Assembly (NCBI RefSeq): GCF_900102815.1
Contig: NZ_FNGF01000001.1
Coordinates: forward strand, 765,443-829,442
Direction: 5' to 3'
DNA from: Glycomyces sambucus
Lineage (GTDB): Bacteria; Actinomycetota; Actinomycetes; Mycobacteriales; Micromonosporaceae
Length of the DNA: 64,000 bases
In this document: positions 4,888 through 20,522 of the stretch, in pieces
Numbering within the stretch: position 1 is the first letter of the stretch
Layout: every line of letters starts with the position of its first letter
The notes under the pieces: generated by a model
Databases searched by the model: none
Told to the model about the DNA's origin: nothing
Seen by the model: the letters and a program-made list of their open reading frames with translations, nothing else
Position numbers and translations under genes: made by a program

Positions 4888-5577
4888 CTACTGCTCCTTC
4901 GGGGCCGGCTGCTGGCCGTAGACGTTCTGGTAGCGGTCGTAGAGCCGGTCGATGTCGGCCTGCGGGATCGGCACGGGCTCGCCGAGCTGGCGCGAGATGT
5001 GGACCGTGCGCGCCACGTCCTCGGTCATCACGGCCGCCTTCACGGCCGACTTCGGGTCCTTGCCGATGGTGAAGACGCCGTGGTTCTGCATGATGACCGC
5101 CGGGGAGCGGTGGCCGCGGAGCGTCTCCACGATCCCCTTGCCGATCGCGTCGGAGCCGATGAGCGCGAACGGGCCCAGCGGGATCTCCCCGCCGAACTCG
5201 TCGGCCATCGCCGTGAGCACGCACGGGATCGGCTCGGCGCGCGCGGCCCACGCGGTCGCGTACGGGCTGTGCGTGTGGACGACCCCGCCGGTCTCGGGCA
5301 TGCGCCGGTAGACCTCGTTGTGGCTCTCGGCGTCCGAGGACGGCGCGAGGTCGCCTTCGAGAACCTTCCCGTCGAGGTCGGTCACGACCATGAGCTCGGG
5401 CGTCAGGTCGTCGTAGGAGACCCCGCTCGGCTTGATGACGATGAGGTCGGTGCCCGGGACGCGGCCCGAGACGTTCCCGCTGGTCCAGGTCACCAGGCCC
5501 CAGCGCAGCAGCTCGGCGTGGAGCGCGCAGACGCGGGCCTTCATCTCCTGGACCTCGGGCGTGGACGTGTAGGTCAC
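4888..5577 (-). CDS. araD: L-ribulose-5-phosphate 4-epimerase
   Basis: A 229-residue class II aldolase-like epimerase. Visible motifs are the WTSGNVSGR phosphate-binding segment, the KPSGVSYDDL strand, and the zinc-binding histidines in VVHTHSPYATAWA plus the later QNHGVF. It converts L-ribulose 5-phosphate to D-xylulose 5-phosphate, feeding the pentose phosphate pathway (the transketolase gene is 4 kb away). The start is a GTG that overlaps the araB stop (GTGA), indicating translational coupling. Length agrees with E. coli AraD (231). Confidence 0.95.
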   Translation of the reverse strand: MTYTSTPEVQEMKARVCALHAELLRWGLVTWTSGNVSGRVPGTDLIVIKPSGVSYDDLTPELMVVTDLDGKVLEGDLAPSSDAESHNEVYRRMPETGGVVHTHSPYATAWAARAEPIPCVLTAMADEFGGEIPLGPFALIGSDAIGKGIVETLRGHRSPAVIMQNHGVFTIGKDPKSAVKAAVMTEDVARTVHISRQLGEPVPIPQADIDRLYDRYQNVYGQQPAPKEQ

Positions 5578-7238
5578 TTCGCGGCCTCCGTGGCGATCTC
5601 GTTGAGCGTGTGCAGCGCGCGGGAGCCGCCACGGCCGAAGTGGTCGTGCAGCTCCTCGTAGACGGCGTACAGCCGGTCGTACGCGTCGGCGCGCGCCTGG
5701 TCGGGCACGTACGCGTTCCGCTCGACCTTGCCCATGGCCTCCGAGGCGGCGTGGATGTCCGGGTAGGCGCCCGCGGCCACGGCCGCGTGGATCGCCGAAC
5801 CCAGGGCCGGGCCCTGCTCGGAGGTGAGGACCGTGATCGGCATGCGCAGCACGTCGGCGTAGGTCTGCATGAGCCACCGGTTCTTCAGCAGCCCGCCCGC
5901 GGCCACGAACTCCTCGATCGGGACCCCGGCCTTGACCAGCGTCTCCACGATCATGCGGGTGCCGAACGCGGTCGCCTCGACCAGCGCGCGGTAGATCTCC
6001 TCGGGCCTGGTCTGGAGCCCCAGGCCCAGGACCGCGCCGTGCAGGGCGTGGTCGACCAGGACCGAGCGGTTCCCCGAGTGCCAGTCGAGCGCGACCAGGC
6101 CGTGCGCGCCCACGGGCTGCTCGGCGGCGAGGTCGGTGAGGTACTCGTGGATGGAGATCCCGCGCTTCGCGGCCTCCTCGGTGTAGGCGGCCGGGACGCC
6201 GTTCTTGGTGAACCACGCGAAGATGTCGCCGACGCCCGACTGGCCGGCCTCGTAGCCCCACAGGCCCTTGGTGATGCCGTCGCGGACCACGCCGCACATC
6301 CCCTGGGCCTCCTTCAGCTCCTCGCCGTTGACGACGTGGCAGGTGCTGGTGCCCATGATCGCCACCATCCGGCCGGGCCCGACGGCCTTCGCCGAGGCGG
6401 CGGTGACGTGCGCGTCGACGTTGCCGACCGCGATCACGGTGCCCTCGTTCAGGCCCGTCCACGCAGCGGCCTGCGCGGTGAGCCCGCCGGCCTTGTCGCC
6501 GAGCGCCGAGAGCGGGTGCTCCATCTTGGCGTTGAAGTCGGCGAACTCCGGGTTCAGGGCCGCGAGGTACTCGCGGGAGGGGCGCTGCCCGTCCTGGACG
6601 ATGCCCTTGTACCCGGCGGTGCAGGAGTTGCGGGTCTCCCGGCCACAGAGCTGCCAGATGATCCAGTCGGCGGCCTCGATCCAGCGGTCCGCGCGGGCGT
6701 ACAGCTCGGGGTCCTCCTCCAGGAGCTGGAGGCCCTTGGCGTAGGCCCACTCCGAGGAGATCTTGCCGCCGTAGCGGGGGAGCCACGACTCGCCGCGCTC
6801 GGCGGCGACCGCGTTGATGCGGTCGGCCTGGCCCTGGGCGGCGTGGTGCTTCCACAGCTTCGGCCACGCGTGCGGGCGCTCGCGGTACTCGTCGAGCTCG
6901 CACAGCGGCGTGCCATCGGCGGTGGTGGGGAGGATCGTGCACGCGGTGAAGTCGGTCGCGACGCCGATCACCTGGTCGGCGCTGACGCCGGCGGCGGCCA
7001 GCGCGGCCGGGACGGCGTGCTTGAGGACGTCGACCCAGTCCTGCGGGGACTGGAGCGCCCAGCTCCGCGGCAGGCGGACGCCGGAGCCGGGGAGGGACTC
7101 CTCGATGGCGCCGTGGGCGTAGACGTGCTCGGCGCTGGCGAGTTCGCGGCCGTCGGCTACGGACGCGACGACGGCGCGGCCGGAGAGCGTGCCGAAGTCG
7201 ATCCCGATAGCAACGGCACCGTTGTCGCTGCCAGTCAT
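5574..7238 (-). CDS. araB: L-ribulokinase
   Basis: A 554-residue FGGY-family kinase. It begins AVAIGIDFGTLSGRAVV, the phosphate-1 loop of ribulokinases, and has the later GVDG-type and FVAAGGLLKN motifs (adenosine binding). The family average is about 560 residues. It phosphorylates L-ribulose to L-ribulose 5-phosphate with ATP. The ATG at 7238 is preceded by a strong AAGGAGG; in-frame extensions upstream lack a ribosome site and cross the presumed operator. It is first in the araB-araD-araA operon and overlaps araD by four bases. Confidence 0.95.
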   Translation of the reverse strand: MTGSDNGAVAIGIDFGTLSGRAVVASVADGRELASAEHVYAHGAIEESLPGSGVRLPRSWALQSPQDWVDVLKHAVPAALAAAGVSADQVIGVATDFTACTILPTTADGTPLCELDEYRERPHAWPKLWKHHAAQGQADRINAVAAERGESWLPRYGGKISSEWAYAKGLQLLEEDPELYARADRWIEAADWIIWQLCGRETRNSCTAGYKGIVQDGQRPSREYLAALNPEFADFNAKMEHPLSALGDKAGGLTAQAAAWTGLNEGTVIAVGNVDAHVTAASAKAVGPGRMVAIMGTSTCHVVNGEELKEAQGMCGVVRDGITKGLWGYEAGQSGVGDIFAWFTKNGVPAAYTEEAAKRGISIHEYLTDLAAEQPVGAHGLVALDWHSGNRSVLVDHALHGAVLGLGLQTRPEEIYRALVEATAFGTRMIVETLVKAGVPIEEFVAAGGLLKNRWLMQTYADVLRMPITVLTSEQGPALGSAIHAAVAAGAYPDIHAASEAMGKVERNAYVPDQARADAYDRLYAVYEELHDHFGRGGSRALHTLNEIATEAAK

Positions 7239-15537: not shown

Positions 15538-15939
15538 TCAGTCGATGTCGCGCCAGGCGCGGAACGCCTCCAGCTCCACGGCCACGAGCTGGCCCGGATG
15601 GAAGAGGCCGGTAACGATGACGACGGTGGCGGTCGGCAGGACCACGCCGAAGAACTCGCCGTGGACCCGGCCCACCGGGTCGGCGTGGGCCGGGTCGGTC
15701 ACATAGAGGCGGGAGCGCACCACGTCCGACACGCCCGCACCGGCGCGGACCATCGCGTCGAGCGCGGTCCGGAACGCCTCGCGGGCCTGCCCGGCGGGGT
15801 CCTCCCGCAGGTGCGGCCGCGCCTCGACGTCGGCGGTGCACGCGCTCGTGACCACGAGCGGCCCCACGGCCACGGCGCGCGAATACCCGTAGAGCTGCGC
15901 CCACGGCCCGGTCTCCGGAACCCGTTCGACCAGTGCCAT
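15538..15939 (-). CDS. ridA: RidA/YjgF-family enamine/imine deaminase
   Basis: A 133-residue protein of the RidA superfamily: the N-terminal PWAQLYGYSRAVAVGPLVVTSACTA, the central VRSRLYVTDPAHADPVGRVHGEFFG and the C-terminal TATVVIVTGLFHPGQLVAVELEAFRA. These proteins form trimers and hydrolyse reactive enamines or imines produced by PLP enzymes. Position at the end of the histidine operon, 17 bases after priA, suggests clearing of reactive intermediates, but the family is broad and some key Arg positions differ. ATG start with AGGGGAGG upstream. Confidence 0.85.
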   Translation of the reverse strand: MALVERVPETGPWAQLYGYSRAVAVGPLVVTSACTADVEARPHLREDPAGQAREAFRTALDAMVRAGAGVSDVVRSRLYVTDPAHADPVGRVHGEFFGVVLPTATVVIVTGLFHPGQLVAVELEAFRAWRDID

Positions 15940-15956: not shown

Positions 15957-16685
15957 CTACATACCCTTCAGCAGGTTCAACGCCTCAGCGACGGTGAAGT
16001 TACGCTCGTACAGCGCGGTTCCCACGATCGCGCCCTCGACGCCGATCCCGGTCAGGCCCGCCAGCGCCCGCAGGTCCTCCAGCGAGGACACCCCGCCGGA
16101 GGCGATCACCGGCTTGTCGGTGGCCTCGCAGACGCTGCGCAGCAGGTCGAGGTTCGGGCCCGAGAGCATCCCGTCGCTGTTCACGTCGGTCACCACGTAC
16201 CGGGCGCACCCGGCGCGCTCCAGGCGCTCCAGGGTCGCGAACAGCTCCCCGCCCTCGCGGGTCCAGCCGCGCGCGGCCAGGTGCCCGCCCTTGACGTCCA
16301 GGCCGATCGCGACCCGGTCGCCGTACTCGCCGCAGATCCGGTCGCACCACTCCGGGTCCTCCAGGGCCGCGGTGCCGATGTTCACCCGCCGGACCCCCGC
16401 TGCCAGTGCGCGCGTGAGGGTCTCGTCGTCGCGGATGCCGCCCGAGAGCTCCACCTGCATGTCGACCTGGCCCGCGACCTTCGCCAGCAGCTCGTGGTTC
16501 GAGCCGCGCCCGAACGCCGCGTCGAGGTCCACCAGGTGCAGCCACTCGGCGCCCTGGCGCTGCCATTCGAGGGCCGCCTCCAGCGGGTCGCCGTACTGCT
16601 TGCCCGAGCCGGCCACGCCCTGGACGAGCTGGACGGCCTTGCCGCCGGTGACGTCGACGGCGGGCAGGAGCTGAAGTTCGGTCAT
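15957..16685 (-). CDS. priA: Bifunctional HisA/TrpF phosphoribosyl isomerase PriA
   Basis: A 242-residue (beta/alpha)8 barrel. It starts [18 protein letters not shown] with the first catalytic Asp; [13 protein letters not shown] and [17 protein letters not shown] carry the phosphate-binding and second catalytic Asp; the C-terminal [12 protein letters not shown] and [10 protein letters not shown] complete the phosphate site. In actinomycetes lacking trpF this enzyme serves both histidine (ProFAR isomerase) and tryptophan (PRA isomerase) synthesis, and the DVTGGKAV motif is PriA-like. ATG start one base after the hisH stop. Confidence 0.92.
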
Positions 16686-16686
16686 G

Positions 16687-17301
16687 TCAGAGATCCTTGA
16701 TCCAGTTGGACAGCAGTGCGTACCCGGCGTCGCCGGACTTCTCGGGGTGGAACTGGGTGGCCGACAGCGCGCCGCGTTCGACGGCGGCCACGAACGGCTC
16801 GCCGTGCACGGTGAGCGCGGCCTTCGCGCCCGGCGGGACGGCCTTGGCGGCGTAGGAGTGCACGAAGTAGAACCGCTCCTCGGGCCCGATGCCCGCGAAG
16901 AGCCGCATGCCCTCGTCGGCGCGGACGGTGTTCCAGCCCATGTGCGGGATGCGGTCGGCCGCAACGAGGTCGACTCGGCCTTCGAGGACGCCCACACCGC
17001 GGGTGCGGACCCCGTGCTCGATGCCCTCCTCGAAGAGGATCTGCTCGCCCACGCAGATGCCGAGCACGGGAGCGGCGGCCGCGACGCGCTCGCGGATGAC
17101 GGCGTCGACGCCGCTCTTGAGGACGCCCTCCATGCAGGCGGCGTAGGCGCCCACGCCGGGCACCACGAGGCCGTCGGCGCGGCGGGCCGCGTCGAGGTCG
17201 CTGGTCAGGGTGGTGTCGGCGCCGGCGCGCTCCAGGGCGCGGAACGCGGACCGGAGGTTCCCCGAGCCGTAGTCGAACAGGGCCACCGTCGGCTTGGTCA
17301 C
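16687..17301 (-). CDS. hisH: Imidazole glycerol phosphate synthase, glutamine amidotransferase subunit
   Basis: A 204-residue class I amidotransferase. [13 protein letters not shown] starts the domain; the nucleophile Cys is in [16 protein letters not shown] (usual family motif GICLGMQLLF) and the catalytic His-Glu pair in TQFHPEKSG. It releases ammonia from glutamine for HisF; hisF is not in the window. GTG start. It lies between the small membrane protein gene and priA in the histidine operon. Confidence 0.93.
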
Positions 17302-17311
17302 CTTGTCCCCC

Positions 17312-17470
17312 TTACCCGTAGACGAGATAGAGGCCGCCGCCGAAGGCGGCGACGGCGAGGAGCCCGGTGACGACCGCCGCGGGGAGCCTGCCGTTGCGGC
17401 GCAGGCTCACCGCGCCGCCGAGGAGGATTCCGGCGAGGGCCATGAGCAGGATCGGTCCGGCCCAGTTCAC
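17312..17470 (-). CDS. Small two-helix membrane protein inside the his operon
   Basis: A 52-residue protein. It starts at a GTG overlapping the hisB stop (GTGA) and ends 10 bases before hisH. The sequence has two hydrophobic helices, PILLMALAGILLGGAV and AAVVTGLLAVAAFGGGLYLV, joined by a basic turn LRRNGRLP, so both termini probably face outward. I recall unannotated small membrane ORFs in this place in other actinomycete his operons but cannot check. The function is unknown; coupling to hisB and hisH suggests it is really translated. Confidence 0.65.
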   Translation of the reverse strand: MNWAGPILLMALAGILLGGAVSLRRNGRLPAAVVTGLLAVAAFGGGLYLVYG

Positions 17471-18075
17471 AGGACCCCCTTGGTGGAGGGGATGTCGGTG
17501 CCGTCGATGCGGGTGGCGGACTTCAGGGCCCGCGCGAGGGCCTTGAACTGGGCCTCGATGACGTGGTGCGCGTCGGGCTTCTGGCCGGGGTTCGCGGACC
17601 GGAGCACGGTGACGTGCAGGCAGATCCGCGCGTGGTACGCGAAGGACTCCAGGATGTGGCGGGTCATCGAGGTGGGGTAGTCGGTGCCGATCATCGGCGC
17701 GATGTCCATCGGCTCCTCGTGGACCATGTACGGGCGGCCCGAGAGGTCGACCACGGCGCGCGCGAGCACCTCGTCGAGCGGCACGGAGGCGTCGGCGAAG
17801 CGGACCACGCCGGCCTTGTCGCCCAGGGCCTCGGCGAACGCCTGGCCGAGCGCGATCGCGGTGTCCTCCATGGTGTGGTGGGCGTCGATGTGGAGGTCGC
17901 CCTTGACGGCGATCTTGAGGTCGAACCCGCCGTGCTTGCCGAGCTGGTGGAGCATGTGGTCGTAGAAGCCGACGCCGGTGGCGATCTCGACGGCCCGGTC
18001 GGTGCCGTCGAGGTCGACGTACACGTCGACGCTGGTCTCACCGGTGGTGCGGACGATGTGCGCGGTGCGGCTCAC
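17467..18075 (-). CDS. hisB: Imidazoleglycerol-phosphate dehydratase
   Basis: A 202-residue HisB. Characteristic motifs: GVGFYDHMLHQLGKHGGFDL, DLHIDAHHTMEDTAIALGQA (metal-binding His clusters) and the repeat in SFAYHARICLHVTVLRSANPGQKPDAHHVIEAQFKALARAL. It dehydrates imidazoleglycerol phosphate to imidazole acetol phosphate with Mn. This is the monofunctional form; no histidinol-phosphatase domain is fused. GTG start immediately follows the hisC stop (TAAGTG). Confidence 0.96.
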   Translation of the reverse strand: MSRTAHIVRTTGETSVDVYVDLDGTDRAVEIATGVGFYDHMLHQLGKHGGFDLKIAVKGDLHIDAHHTMEDTAIALGQAFAEALGDKAGVVRFADASVPLDEVLARAVVDLSGRPYMVHEEPMDIAPMIGTDYPTSMTRHILESFAYHARICLHVTVLRSANPGQKPDAHHVIEAQFKALARALKSATRIDGTDIPSTKGVL

Positions 18076-19200
18076 TTACTTGCTCTCCTCGTTGGGCTCC
18101 GCGGGCGTCGCGAAGTGCTGGGGGCTGTCGGTCATGGCGGCGTCGAAGGCGTCGAGGAGCGCGGTGGTCTCCTCCTCGGTCCCGGCGGTGATGCGCAGGC
18201 GCCCGGGCAGGCCCACGTCGCGGATGAGGACGCCCCGGTCGAGGACGGCCCGCCACACGGCCGCGGCGTCCGCGAGGCCGCCGACGAGGACGAAGTTCGC
18301 GTCGGAGTCGGCGACGGGGAGTCCCTTGGCGCGCAGGTTCTTGACGATGCGGTCGCGCTGGTGCTTGAGCTCGTCGACCTCGGCCTGGAGCTGCGGGGCG
18401 CACGCGAGGGCGCCGCGGGCGGCGGCCTGCGTGAGGCTCGACAGGTGGTAGGGCAGGCGCACCAGCAGCAGCTTCTCGACCAGTTCGGGGTCGGCGGCGA
18501 GGTAGCCGACACGGGCCCCGGCGAACGCGAACGCCTTCGAGAGCGTCCGGGTGACGACGAGGCGCTTGCGGCCCGCCAGGCGGCCCAGGGCCGTGGAGGC
18601 GGGGTCGCGGGCGAACTCGGCGTACGCCTCGTCGATGACGACGATGCCGCGCGCGGCCTCGTAGGCGGCCTCGACGACCTCGGCGTCGAGCGCGGTCCCG
18701 GTCGGGTTGTTCGGGGACACCAGGAAGACCAGGTCCGGGTCGTGGGCGGTGATCGCGTCGCGCACGTACGCGGGGCTGAGCGTGTAGCCGTCCTCGCGTC
18801 CGGCGTCGGTGAAGGCCGTGCCGGTGCCGCGGGCGAGCAGCGGGTGCATCGAGTACGACGGCATGAAGCCGAGGACGGTGCGCCCGGGGCCGCCGAACGC
18901 CTGGAGGAGCTGCTGGAGGATCTCGTTGGAGCCGTTGGCGGCCCACACGTGGTCGGCGGTGAGGCCGTGCCCGAGGTAGGCGGCGAGGTCCCGGCGCAGG
19001 GCGACCGCGTCGCGGTCGGGGTAGCGGTTGAGGCCGCGCAGCTCCCGGCCGATGAACTCGGCGAGCACGGCCGCCACGTCCTCGGGGATGGCGAACGCGT
19101 TCTCGTTGGTGTTCAATTGGACCGGGACGTCGAGCTGGGGCGCGCCGTAGGGCGTCTGCCCGCGCAGGTCCTCGCGGAGCAGGTTCTCGATCTCGCTCAC
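18076..19200 (-). CDS. hisC: Histidinol-phosphate aminotransferase
   Basis: A 374-residue fold-type I PLP enzyme. LNTNENAFAIP and RYPDRDAVALR near the N-terminus, WAANGSNEILQQLLQAF (PLP phosphate), FLVSPNNPTGT, IDEAYAEFA (PLP-binding Asp/Tyr) and the Schiff-base Lys in RTLSKAFAFAGARVGY are all present. It converts imidazole acetol phosphate to histidinol phosphate. GTG start overlapping the hisD stop (GTGA). Other HisC-like enzymes handle aromatic acids, but the operon context settles the role. Confidence 0.95.
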   Translation of the reverse strand: MSEIENLLREDLRGQTPYGAPQLDVPVQLNTNENAFAIPEDVAAVLAEFIGRELRGLNRYPDRDAVALRRDLAAYLGHGLTADHVWAANGSNEILQQLLQAFGGPGRTVLGFMPSYSMHPLLARGTGTAFTDAGREDGYTLSPAYVRDAITAHDPDLVFLVSPNNPTGTALDAEVVEAAYEAARGIVVIDEAYAEFARDPASTALGRLAGRKRLVVTRTLSKAFAFAGARVGYLAADPELVEKLLLVRLPYHLSSLTQAAARGALACAPQLQAEVDELKHQRDRIVKNLRAKGLPVADSDANFVLVGGLADAAAVWRAVLDRGVLIRDVGLPGRLRITAGTEEETTALLDAFDAAMTDSPQHFATPAEPNEESK

Positions 19201-20522
19201 GGCGCGAACCTCGCGGACACCGCTTCGCCGTGCGAGGGCAGGTCCTCGGACTCGGCGAACACCACCACGTCGGCGGCGACGGCTTCGAGGGCCTCGCGGG
19301 AGTAGTCGATGACGTGGACCGCGCGCAGGAACGTGTGGACCGAGAGCCCGGCCGAGTGGCGGGCGCACCCGCCGGTGGGCAGCACGTGGTTCGAGCCGGC
19401 GCAGTAGTCGCCGAGGGACACCGGCGAGTACGCGCCGACGAAGATCGCCCCGGCGTTGCGCACGCGCAGGGCCACCTCGCGGGCGTTCGCGGTCTGGACC
19501 TCCAGGTGCTCGGCGGCGTAGGCGTCGGCGACCGCGACGGCCTCGTCCACGTCGGCGACGAGGATCGTGCCCGACTGCTCGCCCTTGAGCGCGGTGAGCA
19601 CGCGGTCGGCGTGGCGGGCCTGCGGCGCGCGGCGCTCGAGTTCGGCGTCGACGGCGTCGGCGAGGGCCGCGGAGTCGGTGATGAGCACCGAGGCGGCGGC
19701 CGGGTCGTGCTCGGCCTGGCTGATGAGGTCGACCGCGACGTGGACCGGGTCGGCCCCCGCGTCGGCGATGATCGCGATCTCGGTGGTCCCGGCCTCGGCG
19801 TCGGTGCCGACGAGGCCGCGCACGGCGCGCTTGGCGGCGGTGACGTAGACGTTCCCGGGCCCGGTGATCATGTCGACCGGCTCGCACTCGACTGTCCCGT
19901 CTTCGGCCACCGCCCCGTACGTGAACATGGCGACGGCCGCGGGGCCGCCGACGGCGTAGACCTCGTCGACGCCCAGGAGCCCGGCGACGGCGAGGATGCC
20001 CTGGTCGGGCAGGCCGCCGTTGGTCTTCTGGGCCGGGGTCGACAGGGCGATGGACTCGACGCCGGCGATCTGTGCCGGGACGGCGTTCATGATGACCGAG
20101 GAGGCGAGCACGGCGAGGCCGCCGGGCGCGTAGAGGCCGACGCGGCCGACCGGCAGGTACCGCTCGGTGACCGTGCCGCCCGGGGCGACCTCGGAGACGA
20201 CGTCGGGGAGGCGCTGGGCCTCGTGCGCGGCGCGGACCCGCTCGATCGAGGTGAGGTACGCGCGGCGCAGTTCAGGGGCGAGGCCCTCGACGGCGGCCTT
20301 GATCGCGGACTCGGGGACGCGCAGGTGCTCCAGGCGCACGCCGTCGAAGCGCTCGACGGCCTCGACGACCGCGGCCTTCCCCCGATGCGCGATGTCGTCC
20401 ATCAGCGGCTGGATCTGCGCCAGCGCCGCGTTGACGTCGAGCTCGGGGCGCGGCATCAGCCCGCGCAGGGCGCGGACCGGGTAGCCGGCGATTTCTCCTG
20501 AAAGGTCGATGCGTCTGAGCAC
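19197..20522 (-). CDS. hisD: Histidinol dehydrogenase
   Basis: A 441-residue zinc enzyme with ERYLPVGRVGLYAPGG, the NAD-binding MITGPGNVYVTAAKRAV region, the zinc site in AEHLEVQTANA and the C-terminal GDYCAGSNHVLPTGGCARH. It performs the last two oxidations to L-histidine. First gene of the his operon. GTG start; the promoter (TTGACC, 16 bases, TACGCT) ends six bases before this GTG, so the mRNA is predicted to be leaderless. Confidence 0.97.
   Translation of the reverse strand: MLRRIDLSGEIAGYPVRALRGLMPRPELDVNAALAQIQPLMDDIAHRGKAAVVEAVERFDGVRLEHLRVPESAIKAAVEGLAPELRRAYLTSIERVRAAHEAQRLPDVVSEVAPGGTVTERYLPVGRVGLYAPGGLAVLASSVIMNAVPAQIAGVESIALSTPAQKTNGGLPDQGILAVAGLLGVDEVYAVGGPAAVAMFTYGAVAEDGTVECEPVDMITGPGNVYVTAAKRAVRGLVGTDAEAGTTEIAIIADAGADPVHVAVDLISQAEHDPAAASVLITDSAALADAVDAELERRAPQARHADRVLTALKGEQSGTILVADVDEAVAVADAYAAEHLEVQTANAREVALRVRNAGAIFVGAYSPVSLGDYCAGSNHVLPTGGCARHSAGLSVHTFLRAVHVIDYSREALEAVAADVVVFAESEDLPSHGEAVSARFAP

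Follow-up and report, generated by a model that had tools for sequence, protein, structure and literature searches.

The his operon of Glycomyces sambucus carries, between hisB and hisH, a 52-codon reading frame which almost certainly (probability about 0.97) represents a real gene and, judging from the sequences compared here, belongs to an uncharacterised family of two-helix proteins of approximately 50-60 residues that is part of the actinobacterial his operon. The 52-residue small membrane protein and its gene are both referred to as SMP. The window, that is, the whole 64,000-nucleotide stretch of DNA that was analysed, holds the gene on the minus strand, with the GTG at 17468-17470 and the TAA at 17312-17314, and the translation of 17470 down to 17312 reads MNWAGPILLMALAGILLGGAVSLRRNGRLPAAVVTGLLAVAAFGGGLYLVYG (MNWAGPILLM...LYLVYG). 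An earlier note on this DNA had given the coordinates 17312-17470, a length of 52 residues and a GTGA overlap with hisB, all of which can be read directly from the sequence, and the strand, left unstated there, is the minus strand. The hisH gene, said to lie close behind, starts 10 nt downstream of the TAA, and the placement among histidine genes is borne out by HisB, HisH, PriA and HisC, which all score above curated cut-offs. The gene order, all on one strand, is hisD, hisC, hisB, SMP, hisH, priA and a RidA-like gene, with the following features:

19197..20522, minus strand: hisD, an open reading frame which as a query retrieves hisD ahead of hisC in relatives
18076..19200, minus strand: hisC (NF002877, 521 bits, cut-off 409), start deduced from its overlap with hisD
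17467..18075, minus strand: hisB (NF002110, 277 bits, cut-off 266)
17475..17481, minus strand: AAGGGGG, Shine-Dalgarno-like, before the SMP start, read from the sequence
17467..17470, minus strand: GTGA overlap of 4 nt, hisB stop TGA and SMP start GTG
17312..17470, minus strand: SMP gene for a two-helix membrane protein, 52 codons, GTG start, TAA stop
17306..17311, minus strand: GGGGGA, Shine-Dalgarno-like, before the hisH start, read from the sequence
16687..17301, minus strand: hisH (TIGR01855, 204 bits, cut-off 105.4)
15957..16682, minus strand: priA (hisA-trpF, bifunctional isomerase; TIGR01919, 366 bits, cut-off 306)
15538..15939, minus strand: RidA-like gene downstream of priA (PF01042, 45.5 bits, cut-off 27.3)

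The AAGGGGG motif does not count as independent evidence for a ribosome-binding site, since the conserved C-terminus of HisB is encoded by the same bases. The source genome has a single convincing copy of SMP, and no MFS gene stands beside it in the his operon of the window.

The HisB of the window is up to 97% identical to that of named Glycomyces species. Within the genus, a frame of 52-53 codons at the -4 overlap with hisB is present in all 22 Glycomyces genomes (22/22), with a TTG start in one of them. Of 151 relatives, 148 have a HisB match, and the region behind hisB was taken from all of these, giving 149 loci, some of which end at contig edges; a comparable reading frame is present there in many of the other genera, and in others hisB directly joins hisH. 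In the GTDB family, the SMP profile matches 214 of 250 genomes, representing 34 of 44 genera, with the locations examined for part of them, and gives no match in 36/250 genomes and 10/44 of the genera sampled. Among the named loci, the best 80 of 190 from the HisB scan, SMP lies between hisB and hisH in 79, including those of Glycomyces, Micromonospora, Actinoplanes, Asanoa and Longispora, and the sole locus without it is a short metagenome contig where hisH was likewise not found. An overlap of the hisB stop with the SMP start is seen in 48 of these 79 loci; the starts were assigned by rule, and in seven cases the assigned codon is not a standard start codon. These overlaps are consistent with the translational coupling to hisB suggested in the earlier note. 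The note had proposed a comparison of the hisB-hisH gap in relatives, with a lack of conservation, together with a lack of ribosome footprints, as the refutation; the frame is conserved far beyond the genus, so that the first half of this refutation is excluded.

Outside the family, a profile from a broader 25-row alignment (A2), applied at E 0.001 to genomes of at least 90% completeness, matches 125 of 199 genomes in the order and, in the class, 123 of 393 genomes, with no SMP found in the other 270/393. A narrower profile (A1) gave 17 matches in 396 genomes of the phylum, one of which (G537) is false and was rejected as part of a larger membrane protein. Position relative to hisB was assessed for 144 genomes of other families, of which the class search supplied 80 and the order search 64; 39 further genomes of the putatively Streptomyces-type family f18 and 18 order genomes already used for the locus comparison were left out. 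SMP is located within 6 kb downstream of hisB and on the same strand in 137 of the 144, at a distance of up to 60 nt in 115, up to 300 nt in 122 and up to 1 kb in 128. Of the other seven, four belong to the genus g63 and have a solitary copy elsewhere, two have SMP and hisB on different contigs, and one has no HisB match but retains SMP immediately before hisH and priA. SMP was also found behind hisB in 11 of the 39 f18 genomes left out.

The exact slot in the cluster varies. SMP is found 640-1285 nt behind hisB in five genomes of two families (four f17, one f120), and the three of these that were read (L281, L338 and L334) have the order hisB-hisH-SMP-priA. In 8 of 31 genomes of another family (f15) it lies 1.5-4.1 kb behind hisB, with intervening reading frames in L333 and L335, and in the putatively Streptomyces-type locus L283 an insert with a TnpB-like reading frame, named by eye, splits SMP from hisH. 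Since SMP is retained in several slots of the his cluster, it follows the operon rather than one particular junction. The genus g63 is an exception, as in all four of its genomes (L279, L280, L341 and L342) SMP is a solitary gene, remote from hisB or on a separate contig. SMP is also dispensable, given the 36 family genomes, ten genera and 270 class genomes in which no match was found.

That the frame is open says little in itself, as 2805 of 5000 random 51-codon frames generated with a model of the local composition were open too. If SMP were only a chance open frame and not a gene, as more than half of such frames being open would allow, its sequence, length, position and hydropathy should not be conserved class-wide as they are, and this explanation can be practically dismissed. 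Two separated hydrophobic 19-mers are present in the real SMP and in none of the 2805 open random frames. Codon models (MGK+F3X4, on the hisB tree) give an omega of 0.104 for SMP versus 0.026 for hisB in 31 Micromonospora loci and of 0.106 versus 0.036 in 12 Actinoplanes-type loci, with pairwise dN/dS for SMP of 0.28 and 0.31, respectively, and from these sequence comparisons SMP is judged to be under purifying selection in both groups. Constraint within Glycomyces looks weak, with a pairwise dN/dS of 0.86 for SMP versus 0.16 for hisB and an omega of 0.43-0.48 for SMP under F1X4 codon models; the F3X4 value of 1.0 was discarded since a fixed omega of 0.3 fits better (lnL -1436.5 versus -1481.0). 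Many of the Glycomyces changes appear to exchange one hydrophobic residue for another.

The two-helix architecture claimed in the earlier note agrees with the two hydrophobic stretches of the sequence and with the AlphaFold prediction. From a 35-row alignment with a 51-residue query lacking the start residue, the best model is a hairpin with helices at residues 3-24 and 28-50 and a mean pLDDT of 92.1, the five models averaging 92.1, 90.8, 76.9, 76.5 and 66.2. Lysine and arginine are concentrated in the turn between the helices (residues 22-31), with 80 such residues over the 35 sequences compared to none on the N-terminal side and three on the C-terminal side. By the positive-inside rule, positively charged segments stay on the cytoplasmic side of the membrane, and both ends of SMP are accordingly predicted to lie outside. 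It is mainly the basic character of the turn that is conserved. Numbered without the start residue, the nearly invariant small residues are Gly13, Gly17 and Gly18 in the first helix and Ala38, Ala41 and Gly45 in the second, which would fit a tight packing of the helices, and a leucine and a glycine are invariant across families.

Searches of family models did not place SMP in any established family. The window SMP reaches no cut-off in Pfam or NCBIfam, and its best match in PHROGs, where no cut-off is set, has an E-value of 0.18. The sole NCBIfam row at E-values up to 1 is TIGR02234 (trp_oprn_chp), membership of which was rejected, as SMP scores 13.9 bits where 71.15 are required and the model has 202 positions against 52 residues; PF11174 (DUF2970) was likewise rejected with 13.2 bits against a Pfam gathering score of 27. 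Member-by-member scans of the SMP relatives returned just scattered weak rows, among them PF04588 (HIG_1_N) in 3 of 45 A1 members, the window SMP not included, with a best E-value of 0.013; the rows of the 25 A2 members do not contain it. In the PDB, sequence searches gave no match up to E 10 for A2, a single unrelated row for A3 and another for a putatively Corynebacterium-type member, and Foldseek returned no row with an E-value below 0.001. The first Foldseek row is chain K of the Corynebacterium glutamicum III2IV2 respiratory supercomplex (7q21_K; E 3.2, Z 7.7), which stands amid many unrelated hairpins. Fold searches are thus uninformative for SMP, since two-helix hairpins match many unrelated chains. 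An identification of SMP as that supercomplex subunit is not supported by the sequence searches, which gave no match, and cg2302, a C. glutamicum gene discussed below, is not mentioned in the relevant parts of the 7q21 structure paper. No report of SMP was recognised by title or abstract start among the matches listed in the open-licence literature.

One recurrent neighbour of SMP is an MFS permease gene (PF07690). In the putatively Mycobacteriaceae-type family f8, with 61 genomes surveyed by eye and HisB found in 60, SMP is near hisB in 22/60 and the permease gene directly follows it in 12 of those 22. The permease stands by hisB without SMP in nine genomes, SMP stands near hisB with no permease there in ten, and neither is found by hisB in 29, two of which have the lone g63 copy; the counts disregard the weak SMP matches (E 7e-4) away from hisB in two putatively Mycobacteriaceae-type genomes (G1136 and G1130). 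The association has a Fisher p of 0.024, uncorrected for relatedness among the genomes. The permease is not an obligate partner of SMP. In 78 of the 79 named loci with SMP (from the best 80 of 190), hisB and hisH leave no room for one between them, and the hisB-hisH insert in the remaining locus has no MFS match. Of three genomes of the putatively Corynebacterium-type genus g314, one (L367, genome G1167) has the order hisD-hisC-hisB-SMP-MFS, the second (L368, genome G1150) is the same except that a divergent PNPOx-type gene separates hisB from SMP, and the third (G1004) has the permease and no SMP match.

The C. glutamicum operon hisDCB-cg2302-cg2301 is described, in the portion of the source available, as encoding an MFS permease in cg2301 and a protein listed with function unknown in cg2302, and deletion of cg2301 is stated there to leave growth and histidine uptake unchanged (PMC3896937). 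This order equals the hisB-SMP-MFS order of the f8 and g314 genomes, so that cg2302, also orf1 of strain AS019, is probably a member of the SMP family; as far as the source goes, the two are alike in gene order, in the slot after hisB and before the MFS gene, as in L367 and, with its extra divergent gene, L368 (PMC3896937). The statement in the earlier note that such a protein has no known role stands, the listing of its probable counterpart cg2302 in that part of the same paper agreeing with it (PMC3896937).

Of the roles considered for SMP, the one tentatively preferred, at somewhat less than even odds for the mechanism as a whole, is that of a subunit, accessory or regulatory, in a membrane transport step geared to the synthesis of histidine. 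SMP would be translated after hisB, by the stop/start overlap in most of the named loci (best 80 of 190), and would insert as a hairpin whose ends both lie outside and whose short basic turn lies inside, packing through the conserved small residues of both helices. The transport step may consist in the release or balancing of histidine or of a pathway compound; in the putatively Mycobacteriaceae-type genomes the adjoining MFS permease would act as the transporter, and in other genomes the transporter would be encoded elsewhere or be formed by an oligomer of SMP itself. Transport is preferred since SMP is left with almost no cytoplasmic part that could hold a soluble enzyme, since it follows the his cluster and since a permease gene shares its slot in one family. 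AcrZ, KdpF and MgtS are small accessory membrane proteins of transporters, and SMP may be likened to them in its size, its membrane insertion and the working mode proposed here. A narrower proposal, which is doubtful, makes SMP, along with the his-linked MFS permease in genomes that have one, part of a dedicated membrane valve for the release of histidine or a pathway compound, produced in parallel with the pathway; if true, this would be the first lead from genetics to an exporter of histidine.

Nearly as likely as a part in transport, given that some copies stand alone, that many genomes lack the gene and that its link to the permease is imperfect, is that SMP is a general envelope or bioenergetic membrane protein unrelated to histidine, which rides the his operon for constant expression. 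The lone copies away from his genes in all four g63 genomes would agree with such a passenger, as would the 36 of 250 family genomes with no SMP match, some of which have hisB joined to hisH, and the weak constraint in Glycomyces. The first Foldseek row also comes from a respiratory supercomplex, albeit at E 3.2 and with no sequence match to 7q21 or a related PDB chain. A passenger should, however, be more scattered than a gene that stands close behind hisB in 137 of 144 genomes and in more than one slot.

The earlier note had suggested that SMP might anchor the pathway or sense the state of the membrane, and the overlap with the hisB stop and the proximity of hisH in most named loci (best 80 of 190) could indeed point to a membrane anchor or scaffold for HisB, for HisH/HisF or for the whole pathway. 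Such a role is improbable, since both termini are predicted to lie outside, the prediction leaves in the cytoplasm just a short turn of which chiefly the basic character is kept, the gene also occurs after hisH or behind 1-4 kb of other DNA in some lineages and outside the his cluster in another, and hisB is directly joined to hisH in lineages without SMP. Far less likely still is a spacer that couples the translation of hisB and hisH and whose peptide is irrelevant. The overlapping starts, 48 of 79 in the named loci (best 80 of 190, starts by rule), would suit a spacer, but neither the conservation of amino acids across families, including the invariant leucine and glycine, nor the signs of purifying selection would be expected of it, and SMP is retained after leaving the hisB-hisH junction.

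Small proteins encoded in or beside amino-acid operons are already known, TrpM and TrpP being examples. TrpM (SCO2038) of Streptomyces coelicolor, which modulates the supply of tryptophan precursors, is like SMP a small protein of an unfamiliar family within an amino-acid operon; going by its description in the available part of that paper, it differs in having protein-interacting terminal domains, with PepA and ribosomal proteins as partners, and in not being a membrane hairpin (PMC5036795). The same part calls small open reading frames in amino-acid clusters widely acknowledged and cites a 1990 paper on the S. coelicolor his cluster by Limauro et al., so that the SMP frame may have been seen before (PMC5036795). 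In the S. coelicolor numbering, from the portion of the source at hand, hisD is SCO2054, hisB SCO2052 and hisA/trpF SCO2050; one number remains, for hisH, and an SMP gene in this species, if present, would therefore seem to be unnumbered. TrpP of C. glutamicum is, like SMP, a membrane protein, possibly regulatory, beside an amino-acid (trp) operon, and its deletion slowed growth; unlike SMP, it is described in the excerpt of the source as a protein of 170 residues with three predicted helices that belongs to the SdpI/YhfL family (PMC11995493). The TIGR02234 family resembles SMP as well in being a membrane protein named for an amino-acid (trp) operon.

These comparisons place a conserved membrane protein gene, outside the Pfam and NCBIfam models, in the textbook his operon of many Actinomycetes families, which suggests that histidine metabolism has a membrane side that had gone unrecognised, and cg2302, so far listed with function unknown, gains a probable family. 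The transport reading is of particular interest since no histidine exporter is known according to the available parts of two sources (PMC3896937; PMC7696456).

Several loci have additional reading frames in or near the cluster. The TnpB-like transposon frame between SMP and hisH in L283 lies at 5444-6838, and a 412-codon frame between hisB and SMP in L284 (4768-6006) matches nothing in Pfam or NCBIfam at E 0.001. In two f16 loci (L072 and L076), with hisB-hisH gaps of 827 and 873 nt, an extra frame of about 200 codons lies between SMP and hisH. The lone SMP of g63 adjoins similar AtuA-like, acyl-CoA dehydrogenase and carboxylase frames, named by eye, in the four genomes. A second small membrane-like frame of 86-134 codons occupies the hisH-priA gap in four f8-type loci (L374:5467-5727, L366:594-854, L362:378-728 and L363:345-749), and a very basic 113-codon frame with a hydrophobic tail is found between hisH and priA in an f101 locus (L376:2388-2729).
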